A stretch of DNA of 64,000 nt, from positions 62,001 to 126,000 of the forward strand of contig NZ_SZTO01000005.1 of NCBI RefSeq assembly GCF_013369385.1, given 5' to 3'. The DNA comes from Vibrio sp. 05-20-BW147 (GTDB lineage Bacteria; Pseudomonadota; Gammaproteobacteria; Enterobacterales; Vibrionaceae). How positions within the stretch are numbered: position 1 is the stretch's first letter; every line of letters starts with the position of its first letter. Position numbers and translations under genes: made by a program. The notes beneath the pieces are model-generated. The model worked only from the letters and a program-made list of their open reading frames with translations. It had not been told where the DNA came from and did no database searches. Below, one piece after another: positions 32,984 to 41,206 of this stretch.

Positions 32984-33122
32984 TTTATTAAGGATATTGC
33001 TCCGTTTGCCCATGATTTCATTCGTAGTACATAGGCCGTAGGATGGCATTACATGATCATCGTTCCGGAACAATGATCAACGGCGATGTGCAAAAGATCT
33101 TTATGCTGCTTCTCAGTTTGAC

Positions 33123-33150
33123 TTGCATGCGAGTTGAGGTGAGGTATCAT
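33123..33150 (+). promoter_or_regulatory. Likely sigma70 promoter of the AraC regulator
   Basis: TTGCAT (33123-33128), a 16-bp spacer, then TATCAT (33145-33150), about 30 bp before the ATG at 33181. This supports the shorter protein start. Confidence 0.45.
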
Positions 33151-33180
33151 TCTCTAGTCCTTGGTATACAACGCATCACT

Positions 33181-33999
33181 ATGACCGAAACCGATAAGCC
33201 TCAGCCCGAGATCATTGCTAGTTTGAAGCTGCCCAAGCCGGCAGAGTTGGTCACTTTGCCTTCTTATATGGATTGCCATGATCATCATTACACGCAAATC
33301 GTGATTGGTTTGAAGGGGCAAGCCGAGTTTGAGGTGCGAGGGCAAGGAAACTTGGTCGGACCGGGGCAAGGGTGCGTCGTTACGGCGTGTTCAGACCATG
33401 CTTTTGGCGGCGTGATTGGTCAATCGGATATTCTGGTGTTGAACATGCCGATACCGAGTGACGATGATCCGCTGCTGCTGCAAAAAATCAATCAAATTGA
33501 AAAATCTCACCTTTATTTTCAATTGGATGCGCAAATTCAAAAGCTGATCCAGATGTTGGTACACGAGATGCAATCCAATCCGGAAGATCTGCTGTTGAGT
33601 CGCGCGTGCAACGATACGGTGATGGCGCTGCTTCAGCGTCATATATCGGCATTTGAAACGCCAAGAAAAGAGTCGCGTTTTGATCTCGAAGCGATTGATC
33701 GCTATATCGAAAAGCACTTAAGCCATAAGATCAGCGTGGCGCAGCTTGCTGGCAGTGTCTTTCTTGGTGAAAGTCATTTTCATAGCTTGTTTAAAGAACA
33801 AATGGGCATTACACCGCACCAATATGTGCTCGGTAAGCGCATCGACATGGCCAAAGACCTGATTGAAAAAGGCACCTTGAGCTTGGGGCAAATTGCCGAG
33901 CTGACCGGTTTTTCTGGCCAAAGTACCTTTACCCACTCCTTTGCTCGTTTGCAGGGCATCTCTCCTTCTCAGTACAAAAAGCAATTTGGCGTTAAATAA
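33181..33999 (+). CDS. AraC-family transcriptional regulator
   Basis: 272 residues from the ATG at 33181; the frame is open to 33043 but a promoter-like element lies inside that extension and 272 residues is the usual size. An N-terminal cupin-like sensing domain (about 20-140, with MDCHDHHYTQIVIGLKG) is followed by two helix-turn-helix motifs (HKISVAQLAGSVFLGESHFH and LGQIAELTGFSGQSTFTHSF). It lies 183 bp upstream of putA on the same strand and is a plausible activator of proline catabolism; position is the only evidence for that target. Confidence 0.85.
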   Translation: MTETDKPQPEIIASLKLPKPAELVTLPSYMDCHDHHYTQIVIGLKGQAEFEVRGQGNLVGPGQGCVVTACSDHAFGGVIGQSDILVLNMPIPSDDDPLLLQKINQIEKSHLYFQLDAQIQKLIQMLVHEMQSNPEDLLLSRACNDTVMALLQRHISAFETPRKESRFDLEAIDRYIEKHLSHKISVAQLAGSVFLGESHFHSLFKEQMGITPHQYVLGKRIDMAKDLIEKGTLSLGQIAELTGFSGQSTFTHSFARLQGISPSQYKKQFGVK

Positions 34000-34182: not shown

Positions 34183-37100
34183 ATGTTTACAGCAACAGAT
34201 GTGTTGAAGCCGGAGTTTGTCGCGCAGCCGCTCGACAAGCTATGGGCATTGATCTCCCCATTGTATATGGTGGATGAATCTCAATGGCTTGGGCAGCTCT
34301 TGCCACTGGCTACCCCTTCAGCGGAAGAAAAACAAACGATCGCGACTCGAACGACTCAACTAATTGAAGCGATTCGTGCCGACAAGAAGTCGATCCAACT
34401 GATCGATGCTCTGTTGTTGGAGTACAGCCTAGACACACACGAAGGTATCTTGCTGATGTGTTTGGCAGAAGCGCTGATGCGTATTCCGGATGCGGCCACG
34501 GCTGACGCTCTGATCAAAGATAAGATGAGCGTGGCAGATTGGAAATCGCATCTTAAAAATTCTGAATCTGTGTTTGTCAACGCCTCGACATGGGGCCTCA
34601 TGCTGACAGGTAAAGTGGTGGGCTTGGGTGATGATGAAACGCAAAGCGCCAGTCAAGCGCTTAATCGCTTAGTGAACAAGCTTTCTGAGCCAGTGATCCG
34701 CAAAGCCATGTATCAGGCAATGAAGATCATGGGTCATCAGTTCGTTCGTGGTCGCACCATCGAAGAGGCGCAGAAAAATGGCCGCCCGATGCGTGATAAA
34801 GGCTTCACTTACTCTTTTGACATGCTGGGTGAAGCGGCGCTGACCACCGCGGATGCCAATAAATACTTCAAAGATTATTTGATGGCGATTGAGGCGGTGG
34901 GCCGTGAAACGTATGGTAATGACACCAGCCCCGCGCCGTCGGTATCGATCAAACTCTCTGCCTTGCATCCTCGTTATGAAGTGGCTAATGAACACCGCGT
35001 GATGAGCGAGCTGTTTGACACCTTGGCACAACTGCTGAAACGCGCTGTCGAGCTAGACGTTGCGATTACCATTGATGCGGAAGAAGCCGACCGCCTAGAG
35101 CTCTCTCTCAAACTGTTTGAAAAACTCTACCGCAGTGAAACGGTCAAAGGTTGGGGTAAGTTTGGTCTGGTGGTGCAAGCGTATTCCAAACGTGCTCTGC
35201 CGGTGTTGGTGTGGCTCAATGCACTTGCTAAAGAGCAAGGCGATTTGATCCCGCTGCGTTTGGTGAAAGGCGCGTATTGGGACAGCGAAGTGAAGTGGTC
35301 TCAGCAGCGCGGTTACGATAACTACCCGGTTTACACTCGCAAAGAAGCCACCGATGTGGCGTACTTAGCGTGTGCTCGCTTCCTATTAAGCGATGACGTG
35401 CGCGGCAACATCTTCCCGCAATTTGCTAGCCATAACGCGCAAACCGTTTCCTCGATCGCCACCATGGCGACTCACAGCGACTACGAGTTCCAACGTCTGC
35501 ATGGCATGGGTGATTCACTCTATAACCATGTGATGGAGCAGTATCGTCAGCCAGTACGAATTTACGCGCCAGTGGGCAGCCACAAAGATTTGCTGCCATA
35601 CCTAGTGCGTCGTCTGCTGGAAAACGGTGCCAACAGCTCGTTTGTACACCGTTTGGTCGATGCGCGCTGCCCAGTGGCAGAGCTCACCAAACACCCAGTA
35701 GAAGCGCTGACCTCATTTGAAACCCTGAACAATACCAAGATCCCATTGCCAGCGGCGATTTTCCCTGAACGTAAAAACTCCTATGGCGTTAACGTGGATA
35801 TCGAAAGTGAAGCCAAGCCGTTTGAAGCACAGGTCGAGTCCTTCTTGAGCAAGCAGTGGCTAGCTGGCCCGATCATCAACGGCGCATCGCTGGCCGAAAG
35901 CATGATCAAGGACGGTCAAGCGGAAAGTGTCACAGCGCCGTATGATCGTCGTATCCAAGTGGGGCAAATTGCGTTTGCTAACCTTGACCATGTTTCCCAA
36001 GCGATCGACATCGCACAAGCGGCTTTTGCCGATTGGAATCGCACACCGTTGGTGGAGAAAGCGCGTTGCCTAGACAACCTCGCTGACTTGATGGAAGCCA
36101 ACTTGGCTGAGCTGGTGGCACTTTGTCACCAAGAGGCGGGCAAGACACTGCATGACAGTATTGATGAAGTGCGTGAAGCGGTCGATTTCTGTCGTTACTA
36201 CGCCAAACAAGCGCAAAATCTGCAACCTTTTGAGTTAGAAGGCTTTGATGGCGTGAAACGCATTGCCAGCCGTGAAGGTTTGGGGGTGTTCGTCTGCATT
36301 AGCCCGTGGAACTTCCCACTGGCGATTTTCCTTGGTCAAGTGACCGCGGCGCTCGTGGCGGGCAACACGGTCGTAGCGAAACCAGCGGAACAAACCAGTT
36401 TGATCGCGGTACGTGCGGTAGAACTCATGCTACAAGCGGGTTTCCCGGCAGGCGTTGTTCAACTGATCCCTGGTCGTGGTGCGGATATTGGCTCGGCGCT
36501 CACCTCTCACCCTGCCATTGCGGGTGTGGCGTTTACTGGCTCCACCGCCACGGCGCAACGCATCAACGTGACCTTGGCACAACGTGAAGCCAAACCGGTG
36601 CCGTTTATCGCCGAAACCGGTGGTCAAAATGCGATGATCGTGGATAGTACTGCGCTGCCAGAGCAGGTGGTGCGTGATGTGATCCGCTCTGCCTTCGCTT
36701 CTGCAGGTCAACGCTGTTCAGCACTGCGTGTGCTGTTTGTTCAGCAAGACATTGCCGACCGAGTGATTGGCTTGATCCAAGGAGCAATGAATGAACTGAG
36801 TGTTGGTGTGCCGCATCTACACAAAACCGATGTGGGGCCAGTGATTGACGCGCGCGCGAAAGAAAAGCTGCTGCAGCATATCGAGCAGATGAACCAAACT
36901 CAGAAACCGATTGCGCAACTGACACTGGCGGACGATTGTCAGCATGGTGATTTTGTTGCACCAACGGCATTTGAAATCTCAGGCATCGACGTGCTTAAAG
37001 AAGAGCAGTTTGGCCCGATCCTGCACATTGTGCGTTTCAAAGCGTCTGAACTGACTCGCGTGGTGGAACAAATCAACCAAACGGGCTTTGGTTTGACCAT

Positions 37101-37314
37101 GGGTATTCACAGTCGTAACGAAACCACCTACCGCTGGATCGAAAAACACGCACGAGTGGGGAACTGCTACATCAACCGCGACCAAGTGGGTGCGGTGGTT
37201 GGCGTGCAGCCATTCGGTGGTCAGGGCTTATCGGGGACCGGGCCAAAAGCAGGTGGTCCACACTACTTGTACCGCTTTACCCAAGTGCAATTTAACCAGA
37301 CTGAGAACGCATAA
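34183..37314 (+). CDS. putA: Bifunctional proline dehydrogenase / glutamate-semialdehyde dehydrogenase
   Basis: 1043 residues. The FAD-binding proline dehydrogenase barrel (about 180-470; LKLFEKLYRSETVKGWGKFG, RLVKGAYWD, FASHNAQTV) is followed by an aldehyde dehydrogenase domain (about 540-1035) with glutamate in IAETGGQNA and catalytic cysteine in SAGQRCSALR. It oxidises proline to glutamate. There is no N-terminal ribbon-helix-helix repressor domain as in E. coli (1320 residues), so put control must come from another protein. TGAGGA precedes the ATG. First gene of an operon with the ALDH-like gene and putP. Confidence 0.95.
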   Translation: MFTATDVLKPEFVAQPLDKLWALISPLYMVDESQWLGQLLPLATPSAEEKQTIATRTTQLIEAIRADKKSIQLIDALLLEYSLDTHEGILLMCLAEALMRIPDAATADALIKDKMSVADWKSHLKNSESVFVNASTWGLMLTGKVVGLGDDETQSASQALNRLVNKLSEPVIRKAMYQAMKIMGHQFVRGRTIEEAQKNGRPMRDKGFTYSFDMLGEAALTTADANKYFKDYLMAIEAVGRETYGNDTSPAPSVSIKLSALHPRYEVANEHRVMSELFDTLAQLLKRAVELDVAITIDAEEADRLELSLKLFEKLYRSETVKGWGKFGLVVQAYSKRALPVLVWLNALAKEQGDLIPLRLVKGAYWDSEVKWSQQRGYDNYPVYTRKEATDVAYLACARFLLSDDVRGNIFPQFASHNAQTVSSIATMATHSDYEFQRLHGMGDSLYNHVMEQYRQPVRIYAPVGSHKDLLPYLVRRLLENGANSSFVHRLVDARCPVAELTKHPVEALTSFETLNNTKIPLPAAIFPERKNSYGVNVDIESEAKPFEAQVESFLSKQWLAGPIINGASLAESMIKDGQAESVTAPYDRRIQVGQIAFANLDHVSQAIDIAQAAFADWNRTPLVEKARCLDNLADLMEANLAELVALCHQEAGKTLHDSIDEVREAVDFCRYYAKQAQNLQPFELEGFDGVKRIASREGLGVFVCISPWNFPLAIFLGQVTAALVAGNTVVAKPAEQTSLIAVRAVELMLQAGFPAGVVQLIPGRGADIGSALTSHPAIAGVAFTGSTATAQRINVTLAQREAKPVPFIAETGGQNAMIVDSTALPEQVVRDVIRSAFASAGQRCSALRVLFVQQDIADRVIGLIQGAMNELSVGVPHLHKTDVGPVIDARAKEKLLQHIEQMNQTQKPIAQLTLADDCQHGDFVAPTAFEISGIDVLKEEQFGPILHIVRFKASELTRVVEQINQTGFGLTMGIHSRNETTYRWIEKHARVGNCYINRDQVGAVVGVQPFGGQGLSGTGPKAGGPHYLYRFTQVQFNQTENA

Positions 37315-37325
37315 GGAGCAACATC

Positions 37326-38033
37326 ATGGTTCATCAAGTGACGAGTTTTTCGGATGCTTTCTCAGCATGGGAACAGTGGAATCTAACCAATTTTGATTAC
37401 AAATGTGAGCACTTGCTTGCATTTAAAGCCGCTCTGGATGGGAAGCATGCGCTGGTTGCCAAGGTGGTGTCTTACCACTTGCAACAAGCCTCTTCGCTAT
37501 TGGCTGACGCCCACCTTTTGGTTGGGCCTACCGGAGAAACCAACGAGTTGTACACCGCGGGCCGTGGGGTGGCGCTGGTGATCGTTGAAAACGAGCAAAG
37601 CGATTCAGAGCAAGCTCTGTACAACGCTTTTGCTTTAGTGACCTGCGCGCTGATCGCTGGTAACAGCGTCCTCGTTTGCAGTGATAACTCAGAGTTCAAC
37701 GGCTTGCTCAGCAGCGCCCTTGAACAGACGCATTTCCCTTCCAACCTAGTACAAATGGTCGCCTACGATGCGGTTTTACAGCTCATCGACCGTGATGTAC
37801 GCAGTGTCGGTTACGTGGGTAATGCGCAGGTTGAGCATGATCTCAATCTACAATTGGCCAAACGTAACGGTGCTATCGTTGGTTTGGTTTCTGCAACGGA
37901 TCAAACAGGCGCTCTGCTTGCTCATGATCCGCATCTCTCGCTGCGCTTTATTACCGAGCGTACGCGAACCATAAATATTACCGCAGTGGGTGGTAACGCA
38001 ACTCTACTCGAGTTGGGGAACGATACTCACTAA
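37326..38033 (+). CDS. ALDH-superfamily-like protein of the put operon
   Basis: 235 residues, 11 bp after putA. The sequence looks like a partial aldehyde-dehydrogenase Rossmann domain (LYTAGRGVALVIVENEQ, then CALIAGNSVLVCSDNSEF, which parallels the ALDH pattern ALVAGNTVVAKPAE in PutA) but has no catalytic cysteine or glutamate. It resembles the C-terminal ALDH-like domain of long (type B/C) PutA proteins, here as a separate gene. In long PutAs that domain shapes the substrate channel, so it may bind PutA. Often mislabelled as a P5C dehydrogenase. Confidence 0.75.
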   Translation: MVHQVTSFSDAFSAWEQWNLTNFDYKCEHLLAFKAALDGKHALVAKVVSYHLQQASSLLADAHLLVGPTGETNELYTAGRGVALVIVENEQSDSEQALYNAFALVTCALIAGNSVLVCSDNSEFNGLLSSALEQTHFPSNLVQMVAYDAVLQLIDRDVRSVGYVGNAQVEHDLNLQLAKRNGAIVGLVSATDQTGALLAHDPHLSLRFITERTRTINITAVGGNATLLELGNDTH

Positions 38034-38042
38034 CCTTTCCAT

Positions 38043-38067
38043 GCTCCCCCACGCCGTTTGGGGGAGC
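38043..38067 (+). other. Intercistronic hairpin before putP
   Basis: Perfect 9-bp GC-rich stem GCTCCCCCA / TGGGGGAGC with a 7-base loop and no T-run, 36 bp before the putP ATG. It is likely to protect or differentially stabilise putP versus putA mRNA. Confidence 0.6.
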
Positions 38068-38102: not shown

Positions 38103-39596
38103 ATGATAGAGAGTAGCTTCGCTATTACGGGCACTTTTATTGCCTATTTACTTCTTATGGTGGCTATTGGGCTTTATGCCTACAAAAAGACATCCAGCTC
38201 AAGTGACTATTTCTTGGGTGGTCGTAGCTTAGGTCCATGGCCAGCGGCGCTGTCTGCTGGGGCATCGGACATGAGTGGTTGGTTGTTGCTGGGCCTACCT
38301 GGTTACGCTTACGCCGCGGGTATCGAGTCGTTCTGGCTTGCTGGTGGTTTGTTGGTGGGTACTTGGGCAAACTGGCTAGTCAGTGCCAAGCGTCTTCGTA
38401 CTTACAGTATTCAAACAGATGCGCTTACTTTGCCTGAATTCTTGTCACGTCGTTTCGATGACAAATCAAAACTGATTCAGACAATTTCTGCTTTCTTCAT
38501 TCTGTTGTTCTTCCTTTTCTATACCAGCTCAGGCTTGGTTGCAGGGGGCAAACTGTTTGAAACTGTGTTTGGTCTTGATTACAGCACCGCGGTGATCATC
38601 GGTACCCTGTGTGTGGTTTCGTACACCTTGTTTGGTGGTTTCCTCGCGGTATCGTGGACAGATTTAGTGCAAGGCCTGTTGATGGCGGCGGCGTTGATGA
38701 TTGTTCCTATTGCTGTAATGGAAGGGGGCTTTGGCCAACTGACGACCGACATGCACAACATTAACCCAGAGCTACTGACGCTATGGAACGATGCCAAAGG
38801 TGAGCCACTCAGTGCGATCGCGATTATTTCACTGGTTGCTTGGGGTCTTGGTTATTTTGGTCAGCCACATATTTTGGCGCGTTTTAAAGCCTCTCGTACT
38901 AACCGTGAGTTGGGTACGGCTCGTCGCATTGCAGTGAGTTGGACTGCGCTATCGATGGCGGGTGCGATTCTGGTTGGTTTGGTTGGCCTTGTATGGGTTA
39001 ACGGTCACCCAGGGACTGAGCTTGGTGATGGTGAAAAAATCTTCATGTTGCTAGTGAACAGTGTGTTCCACCCTGTTATTGCCGGTATCTTACTAGCGGC
39101 GATTCTAGCTGCGGTCATGAGTACTGCGGACTCTCAACTGTTGGTTTCGTCTTCAGCATTAGCGGAAGATTTTTACAAGCAAGTGATCAAGCAAGACGCA
39201 AGCTCTCAGGAAATTGTCACAGTCGGCCGTATTGGTGTGGTGGTGATTTCCATCATTGCTCTTGTCCTTGCCATGACACCAGATAGCTCGGTATTGGGCC
39301 TTGTTTCTTACGCATGGGCTGGTTTTGGTGCTGCCTTCGGTCCTGCCGTTGTGCTAAGCCTTTACTGGAAAGGGATGAACCGCAACGGCGCACTGGCGGG
39401 TATCCTGATTGGTGGCATTACTATCGTGGTTTGGAAACAGCTGACTGGCGGTTGGTTCGACGTGTACGAAATCGTACCGGGAATCATCTTCTCAACCATC
39501 GCGATTATTGCGGTCAGCAAGCTAACCGGTGGTGCAGATAAGGCTGTTCTAGAGCAGCACCAAGAGTTTGAGAAAAAGTTGGTTGAGTTGGATTAA
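38103..39596 (+). CDS. putP: Sodium/proline symporter
   Basis: 497 residues from the ATG at 38103 (GAGGA upstream); an in-frame ATG at 38058 adds a non-family extension that overlaps the hairpin. About 13 membrane helices of the sodium:solute symporter fold, with signature segments SDYFLGGRSLGPWPAALSAG near the N-terminus and AAILAAVMSTADSQLLVSSS in the middle (sodium site). Imports proline with Na+ for PutA. Last gene of the put operon, followed by a strong terminator. Confidence 0.95.
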   Translation: MIESSFAITGTFIAYLLLMVAIGLYAYKKTSSSSDYFLGGRSLGPWPAALSAGASDMSGWLLLGLPGYAYAAGIESFWLAGGLLVGTWANWLVSAKRLRTYSIQTDALTLPEFLSRRFDDKSKLIQTISAFFILLFFLFYTSSGLVAGGKLFETVFGLDYSTAVIIGTLCVVSYTLFGGFLAVSWTDLVQGLLMAAALMIVPIAVMEGGFGQLTTDMHNINPELLTLWNDAKGEPLSAIAIISLVAWGLGYFGQPHILARFKASRTNRELGTARRIAVSWTALSMAGAILVGLVGLVWVNGHPGTELGDGEKIFMLLVNSVFHPVIAGILLAAILAAVMSTADSQLLVSSSALAEDFYKQVIKQDASSQEIVTVGRIGVVVISIIALVLAMTPDSSVLGLVSYAWAGFGAAFGPAVVLSLYWKGMNRNGALAGILIGGITIVVWKQLTGGWFDVYEIVPGIIFSTIAIIAVSKLTGGADKAVLEQHQEFEKKLVELD

Positions 39597-40711: not shown

Positions 40712-41206
40712 ATGTCAGCTTACCCGTTGGATCGTATCGATCTGCAAATCTTACGCATCTTGCACTTAAAAGGCCGTTTACCTGTGGTGGAACTGGCTAA
40801 GCAGGTCAACTTGACCACCTCACCGTGTTCTGAGCGAGTCAAACGTTTAGAGAAAGAAGGGTACATCAAGGGGTATCACGCTGAACTCAATGCCGAAAAG
40901 TTGGGCTTGGATGTCCAGGTGTTTATTCATATTCGTCTTGATCAAACCAGCTTTTCCATCTTTGAAAAGTTTGCCAAAGCTGTCGCCGATATGCCGGAGA
41001 TTGAGGAGTGTTACTCATTGTCGGGCGATTTTGACACCATGATCAAAGTGCGTGTCAAAAGCATGAAGGCGTATCAAGAGTTTATGTCGAGCAAGCTAGG
41101 GACTCTGCCGGGGGTGATTCAAACGCGCAGCGAAGTGGTGATTGAGGAGCACAAAACGGGCTTTGGTGTGAACCCAGAGTTGTTGTCGACCTTGTACCAA
41201 AAGTAA
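40712..41206 (+). CDS. Lrp/AsnC-family transcriptional regulator
   Basis: 164 residues. N-terminal helix-turn-helix (LDRIDLQILRILHLKGRLPV, then CSERVKRLEKEGYIKGY) and a C-terminal RAM effector domain (EECYSLSGDFDTMIKVRV) that binds amino acids. AAGAAAGGGATG ribosome context supports the start. It is close to, but not in, the put operon; Lrp-type PutR regulators are known in other proteobacteria, so proline control is possible but unproven. A bidirectional terminator (41269-41293) follows. Confidence 0.88.
   Translation: MSAYPLDRIDLQILRILHLKGRLPVVELAKQVNLTTSPCSERVKRLEKEGYIKGYHAELNAEKLGLDVQVFIHIRLDQTSFSIFEKFAKAVADMPEIEECYSLSGDFDTMIKVRVKSMKAYQEFMSSKLGTLPGVIQTRSEVVIEEHKTGFGVNPELLSTLYQK

Follow-up and report, generated by a model that had tools for sequence, protein, structure and literature searches.

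In a 64,000-nucleotide stretch of the Vibrio sp. 05-20-BW147 genome (assembly GCF_013369385.1, contig NZ_SZTO01000005.1, positions 62,001 to 126,000; hereafter the window), a small gene lies between putA, which encodes the proline dehydrogenase (PRODH) and aldehyde dehydrogenase (ALDH) enzyme PutA, and the symporter gene putP (Table 1). The first-pass annotation of this DNA had placed a 235-residue product here, and the interval is exactly one forward-strand open reading frame (ORF) with an ATG start codon and an AAGGAG ribosome-binding site. It begins 11 bp downstream of the putA stop codon, with putP further downstream, and a whole-genome search found one copy each of the small gene and of putA in the 4.47-Mb genome. 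The ratio of nonsynonymous to synonymous substitution rates (dN/dS) is 0.07–0.17 against five of six relatives (dS was saturated for the sixth), and the small gene is under purifying selection.

Table 1. Features of the putA–putP locus, in positions of the window.
Feature	Position	Strand	Basis
putA, 1043 aa, PRODH + ALDH, catalytic motifs intact (PWNFP 708, ETGGQN 811, Cys845)	34183..37314	+	Pfam/NCBIfam; motif positions
PutA flap loop, about residues 681-695 (FELEGFDGVKR); GPTGExN, present here in type A PutAs, is absent	36223..36267	+	Alignment and motif counts
PutA C-terminus after ...GPHYLYRF, residues 1033-1043; short variable tail without lid	37279..37311	+	Sequence comparison
Shine-Dalgarno sequence AAGGAG, overlapping the putA stop codon	37313..37318	+	Sequence
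Coding sequence of the putative lid subunit, 235 aa, ATG start	37326..38033	+	ORF list; homologues in 37 split putA loci and 80 named loci
Flap-loop motif GPTGETNELY, small-protein residues 67-76	37524..37553	+	Mostly invariant or nearly so in alignment
C-terminal lid motif RFITERTRTINITAVGGNATLLELG, small-protein residues 207-231	37944..38018	+	Most conserved 26-residue stretch
putP, sodium/proline symporter, third gene of the cluster	38103..39596	+	NCBIfam TIGR02121 8e-219; ORF end; start codon

ALDH oligomerization domains consist of a hairpin preceding the PWNFP motif and a C-terminal strand. In published PutA structures, the C-terminus forms a lid over the substrate tunnel, and in the type A PutA dimer the oligomerization domain covers the tunnel of the partner (PMC5786444). 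Like type A PutAs, the window PutA has about 1000 residues with PRODH and ALDH domains (Pfam Pro_dh and Aldedh) and no extra C-terminal domain; unlike them, it lacks both a lid of its own, ending in ...GPHYLYRFTQVQFNQTENA, and the GPTGExN motif, which we term the flap. The first-pass description of this PutA as the short form holds for its length and domain content, but it is not an ordinary short PutA because both motifs are absent.

The missing elements have counterparts in the small protein. A family profile built from 25 homologues matched the C-terminal domain of the long PutA SmPutA (5kf6) in one colinear stretch (residues 1072-1235, E 7.6e-15), which bears out the first-pass claim of a resemblance to the non-catalytic ALDH-like domain of long PutAs. 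Against type A PutA, the same profile matched two separate segments, the ALDH Rossmann domain (612-770) and the C-terminal tail (968-998), with E ~1e-32; the catalytic domain that lies between these segments is missing from the small protein. With both matches, the resemblance goes well beyond chance. Judged by these alignments, the small protein consists of an ALDH Rossmann domain that runs into a C-terminal tail, with no catalytic part. Its lid motif aligns with the type A tail and falls inside the match to the end of SmPutA, and the protein itself ends in ...RFITERTRTINITAVGGNATLLELGNDTH. Identity to distant homologues is about 33–37% overall.

General domain searches recover little of this relationship. 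No significant domain, and no Aldedh match, was returned by a Pfam search of the small protein; a TraB_PrgY_gumN hit under the cut-off (E 0.056) was taken as chance. NCBIfam PutA models match it at 8e-15 and 8e-13, far under their cut-offs (13.6 vs 485.2 bits for TIGR01238; 53.7 vs 747 for PRK11904). The motifs PWNF, GQxC and ExGGxN occur in none of the 34 small proteins sampled at the level of the order, so the small protein is almost certainly not a working dehydrogenase, and the partner PutAs of those 34 retain them almost throughout (PWNF 32/34, GQxC 34/34, ExGGxN 32/34).

We recorded the location of lid and flap in PutAs sampled evenly from the order. Queried with PutA, this sample comprised 138 genomes, 104 of them with PutA (108 matches). 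Besides the window PutA, 105 PutAs were taken and two contig-end fragments were omitted; one of the 106, L238, was incomplete, leaving 105 complete. These comprised 38 short PutAs with their own lid and no small gene (type A), 33 long PutAs with the lid at the end of an extra domain, and 34 short PutAs without a lid, each adjoining a small gene that has one (hereafter split pairs). The lid was in PutA in 71 cases and in the adjacent small gene in 34, never in both and never in neither. An independent search of the same 138 genomes with the small-protein family returned the identical 34 free-standing genes and, among the matches listed, no others bar one contig-edge fragment. A further 17 class-level and 4 phylum-level PutAs were added; these were chosen from hits to the small-protein profile and are a biased test. 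Across the resulting 126 parsed PutAs (46 type A, 43 long, 37 split), the lid was in cis in 89 and in trans in 37, with no case of both or neither: all 46 type A PutAs have it, and it is absent from PutA in all 37 split pairs, that of the window included. The parser missed two additional class-level PutAs; both are type A and have the two motifs in cis.

The flap follows the same distribution. With its pattern relaxed from GPTGExN to TGEx[ND] or SGESN, it is found in the catalytic ALDH loop before PWNFP in 45/46 type A PutAs (the lone exception reads TGQKD), in 0/43 long and in 0/37 split PutAs. It lies instead in the extra C-terminal domain in the long PutAs (43/43) and in the small protein in the split pairs (37/37), in every one of which the small gene adjoins putA. 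The pattern recurs in 80 named loci, chosen by the small protein: in the 78 with a readable full PutA, PutA is without both motifs and the small ORF has both (78/78). A 57-row tree of PutA cores shows 7 changes in the flap trait, and in all 57 rows its state matches whether PutA has an extra module, either attached or separate. Across these alignments, the flap motif moves together with the lid. Such an arrangement, in which each PutA of the samples examined has one lid and, one variant aside, one flap, in cis or in trans, is not stated in the excerpts of the PutA literature cited here. The channel-closing role that the first-pass annotation had suggested gains strong indirect support from the 37 split pairs, in all of which PutA has lost both motifs and the small protein has both. 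In V. mytili (L057 / L081), putA appears to be broken between two frames around residue 700, through either a true frameshift or an error in the assembly.

Conservation and predicted structure point the same way. In a 25-row alignment of the small protein, mean majority identity is 0.94 in the lid (206-231), 0.87 in the flap region (66-82) and 0.52 in the rest, and no 26-residue stretch outscores the lid. The AlphaFold model (mean predicted local distance difference test score, pLDDT, 77.5) contains a hairpin and three helices, together with strands and helices that alternate as in a Rossmann fold, and the ordered part of the protein corresponds to an ALDH Rossmann domain. Structural comparison gave type A PutA chains as the best matches to the model (Foldseek E 3e-9; VIA-align Z 22.1, rmsd, the root-mean-square deviation, 2.6 over 203 residues). 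The parts modelled with least confidence are the flap (pLDDT about 50) and residues 211-235 (28–36), so that the lid is predicted to be disordered in the protein modelled alone. Over 24 blocks, conservation and pLDDT run opposite to one another (Spearman -0.66, p 4.5e-4, with adjacent blocks not independent of each other). Strong constraint on a segment that is predicted to be disordered by itself suggests a partner, and a partner-binding surface would be expected to show this pattern.

Two known modules frame the comparison. By sequence, the C-terminal domain of type B/C PutAs (a domain of unknown function, DUF; SmPutA 5kf6, R. capsulatus, E. coli) appears to share with the small protein a Rossmann-type domain lacking the catalytic part, with a TGExN flap followed by a terminal lid in the same order; unlike it, the small protein is a separate ORF, and its partner PutA has a core that groups with type A. 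In RcPutA this C-terminal domain is reported to contribute to ALDH activity and channelling (PMC5293562). The type A ALDH module (Bradyrhizobium 3haz/6bsn) is the closest solved structure (E ~1e-32, Z 22.1) and has both motifs, but the small protein lacks about 200 residues of its catalytic domain together with the catalytic motifs.

Taken together, we consider it probable that the small gene encodes a catalytically dead, separate subunit of PutA, a false dimer partner that would close the tunnel in trans. It would dock on PutA's ALDH (glutamate semialdehyde dehydrogenase, GSALDH) module, taking the position that a second PutA protomer would otherwise hold, probably at a 1:1 ratio of PutA to small protein. 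The Rossmann fold would serve as a scaffold, the GPTGExN flap would support the ALDH module, and the C-terminal lid peptide would lie over the tunnel that carries Δ1-pyrroline-5-carboxylate (P5C)/glutamate semialdehyde from the PRODH site to the ALDH site; we infer that binding and closure of this kind would affect flux through the enzyme. The tunnel would then be covered by the other protomer in type A PutAs, by the attached domain in type B/C PutAs and by a separate subunit in the split pairs.

Several observations weigh against this interpretation. The motif patterns were set after the sequences had been viewed and were then relaxed; under the strict flap pattern, the order sample gives 32/38 type A, 29/33 long and 31/32 split. 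Sequences within a clade are not independent, and with only five independent pairs on well-supported branches (sign test, p 0.0625) the statistical support from phylogeny taken by itself is modest. Part of the lid's low pLDDT may come from a shallow alignment (43 sequences), the structure matches listed contain no type B/C C-terminal domain, and the model of PutA itself was too poor (mean pLDDT 62.7) and was set aside. Outside the order sample, one small protein, L037, seems to change reading frame within its lid.

An alternative role for a PutA-binding subunit would be mainly regulatory, acting in membrane docking, in redox or proline sensing or in stability and not in sealing. For long PutAs, a part in functional switching has been suggested for the C-terminal domain, which a model based on small-angle X-ray scattering (SAXS) places near the PRODH site (excerpts of PMC5293562). 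Against a regulatory role, what PutA has lost and the small protein keeps is the flap and the lid, the latter of which covers the tunnel in solved PutAs; furthermore, type A PutAs, non-switching according to the same excerpts (PMC5293562), have the lid in 46/46 cases and the flap in 45/46. We therefore regard a mainly regulatory function as unlikely.

The origin of the split pairs bears on a further alternative, namely that a long (type B/C) PutA simply split to yield the small gene. The colinear match to the long-PutA domain would fit such an event, as would a fused PutA with a similar end: L260 (genome G754, of another class) is a 1291-aa PutA with a covalent C-terminal domain that the small-protein profile matches at 5.3e-44, above other long PutAs among the matches listed (best 6.1e-32). 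However, the core of the G754 PutA groups with long PutAs, and most split cores fall near G070 among the order's type A PutAs (support 100 and 99 in two trees). Topologies uniting the main split cores with either of two long clades tested, the long PutAs of the order or the enterobacterial-type long PutAs, were rejected in quick trees under a simple model (approximately unbiased, AU, test, p 1e-7 and 2e-34, respectively). In addition, L261 and L262, split PutAs from outside the order, end in RFATEQDL and RFAIEQDL, apparently the stump of a type A tail. A simple fission thus appears very unlikely. The first-pass proposal that a domain attached in other bacteria is here encoded separately holds in that the gene has its own ORF, start codon and ribosome-binding site; its derivation as a broken-off piece of a long PutA fails for the two long clades.

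In a tree of the domains themselves, the small protein falls closer to the ALDH domains of type A PutAs than to the C-terminal domains of most long ones (support 88–90, long branches), a placement that is weakly supported. The small protein may derive either from a duplicated type A ALDH domain or from a long C-terminal domain whose gene was transferred to a type A PutA. A single origin of all split pairs was not rejected (p 0.79), the constrained tree lying 22.6 log units above the free search.

Second, highly divergent pairs of split PutA and small protein (family f13) were observed at L232, L234 and L213 (genomes G468, G449 and G487, respectively), and in G487 the divergent L213 is the sole PutA found. 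Those of them that were sampled in the free quick trees, L213 and L232, stand apart from the other split cores, beside the long-branched type A PutA L237. The PutA ALDH domains of L232 and L234 have lost PWNF and ExGGxN, and their aldehyde-oxidising half may therefore be inactive.

The small gene might also be the functionless, decaying leftover of an earlier long PutA or of a putA duplicate, as the loss of its catalytic half and the low identity to distant homologues could suggest; its low dN/dS, its position next to putA in 37/37 split pairs and its two near-invariant motifs make this highly improbable, and loss of the small protein would leave PutA without a lid.

In V. campbellii, the gene in this position was described as PutC, a P5C dehydrogenase, within a putBCP operon, and the annotated putB, putC and putP were jointly down-regulated in a mutant (excerpts of PMC3858670). 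Matched by gene order and name, this putC is apparently the same gene, lying in the interval between the PutA gene and putP, but the sequences examined here lack the catalytic domain of a dehydrogenase. Despite that name and its likeness to the ALDH domains of PutA, the small protein is almost certainly not a stand-alone P5C/glutamate-semialdehyde dehydrogenase, given the missing catalytic domain and motifs, the scores far under family cut-offs and the intact ALDH domain of PutA itself.

A match to the small protein, free-standing or within PutA, was found in 68 of 80 genomes comprising the window's own, 48 of the genus and 31 of the order. The best 80 named matches are to Vibrio, one unclassified Vibrionaceae metagenome-assembled genome (MAG), one Vibrionales isolate and two Motilimonas. 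Counts at higher ranks refer to the matches listed, which rarer or weaker cases may escape: in a class sample of 369 genomes a frame of less than 400 aa was found solely in the window's own genome, and in a phylum sample of 299 genomes the free-standing form was present in at least 11, of which at least three (G605, G663, G678) are outside the order.

An AraC-family regulator is encoded just upstream of putA on the same strand (window 33043-33999), and an adjacent pruR is mentioned for the Vibrio put operon (excerpt of PMC3858670). An Lrp/AsnC-family regulator is encoded downstream of putP (40712-41206); in R. capsulatus, putA is activated by a regulator of this family (excerpt of PMC5293562). 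In the gap between the small gene and putP, a strong GC-rich hairpin (GCTCCCCCA-loop-TGGGGGAGC, 38043-38067) without a T-run is possibly a processing or attenuation element. The idea of a conserved hairpin at this position was unsupported, since a perfect stem of at least 7 bp occurs in 28/80 relatives; the sequence of the stems after the small gene differs among the relatives shown.

PutA is a model for substrate channelling. We know of no precedent for a metabolic tunnel with a removable, regulated cover. As the lid of the split pairs would be a separate protein, a cell could conceivably switch PutA, through the supply or binding of the subunit, between a sealed form, in which P5C is channelled to glutamate, and an open one that lets P5C escape, although we consider such switching rather unlikely. 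In the PutA structures described in the excerpts of the cited papers the tunnel cover is part of a PutA chain, and probing its role requires truncation or mutation of the enzyme; a separate cover, if confirmed, could be omitted, titrated or mutated with the enzyme untouched. Searches of an open-licence literature collection, which omits the main papers on the type B/C domain, showed no separate lid subunit of PutA. The gene is present in many Vibrio genomes and would have to be renamed where, as in at least one study, it is called a P5C dehydrogenase. Overall, Vibrio and some of its relatives have a PutA without the sealing end piece, and the neighbouring small gene appears to supply the lid.
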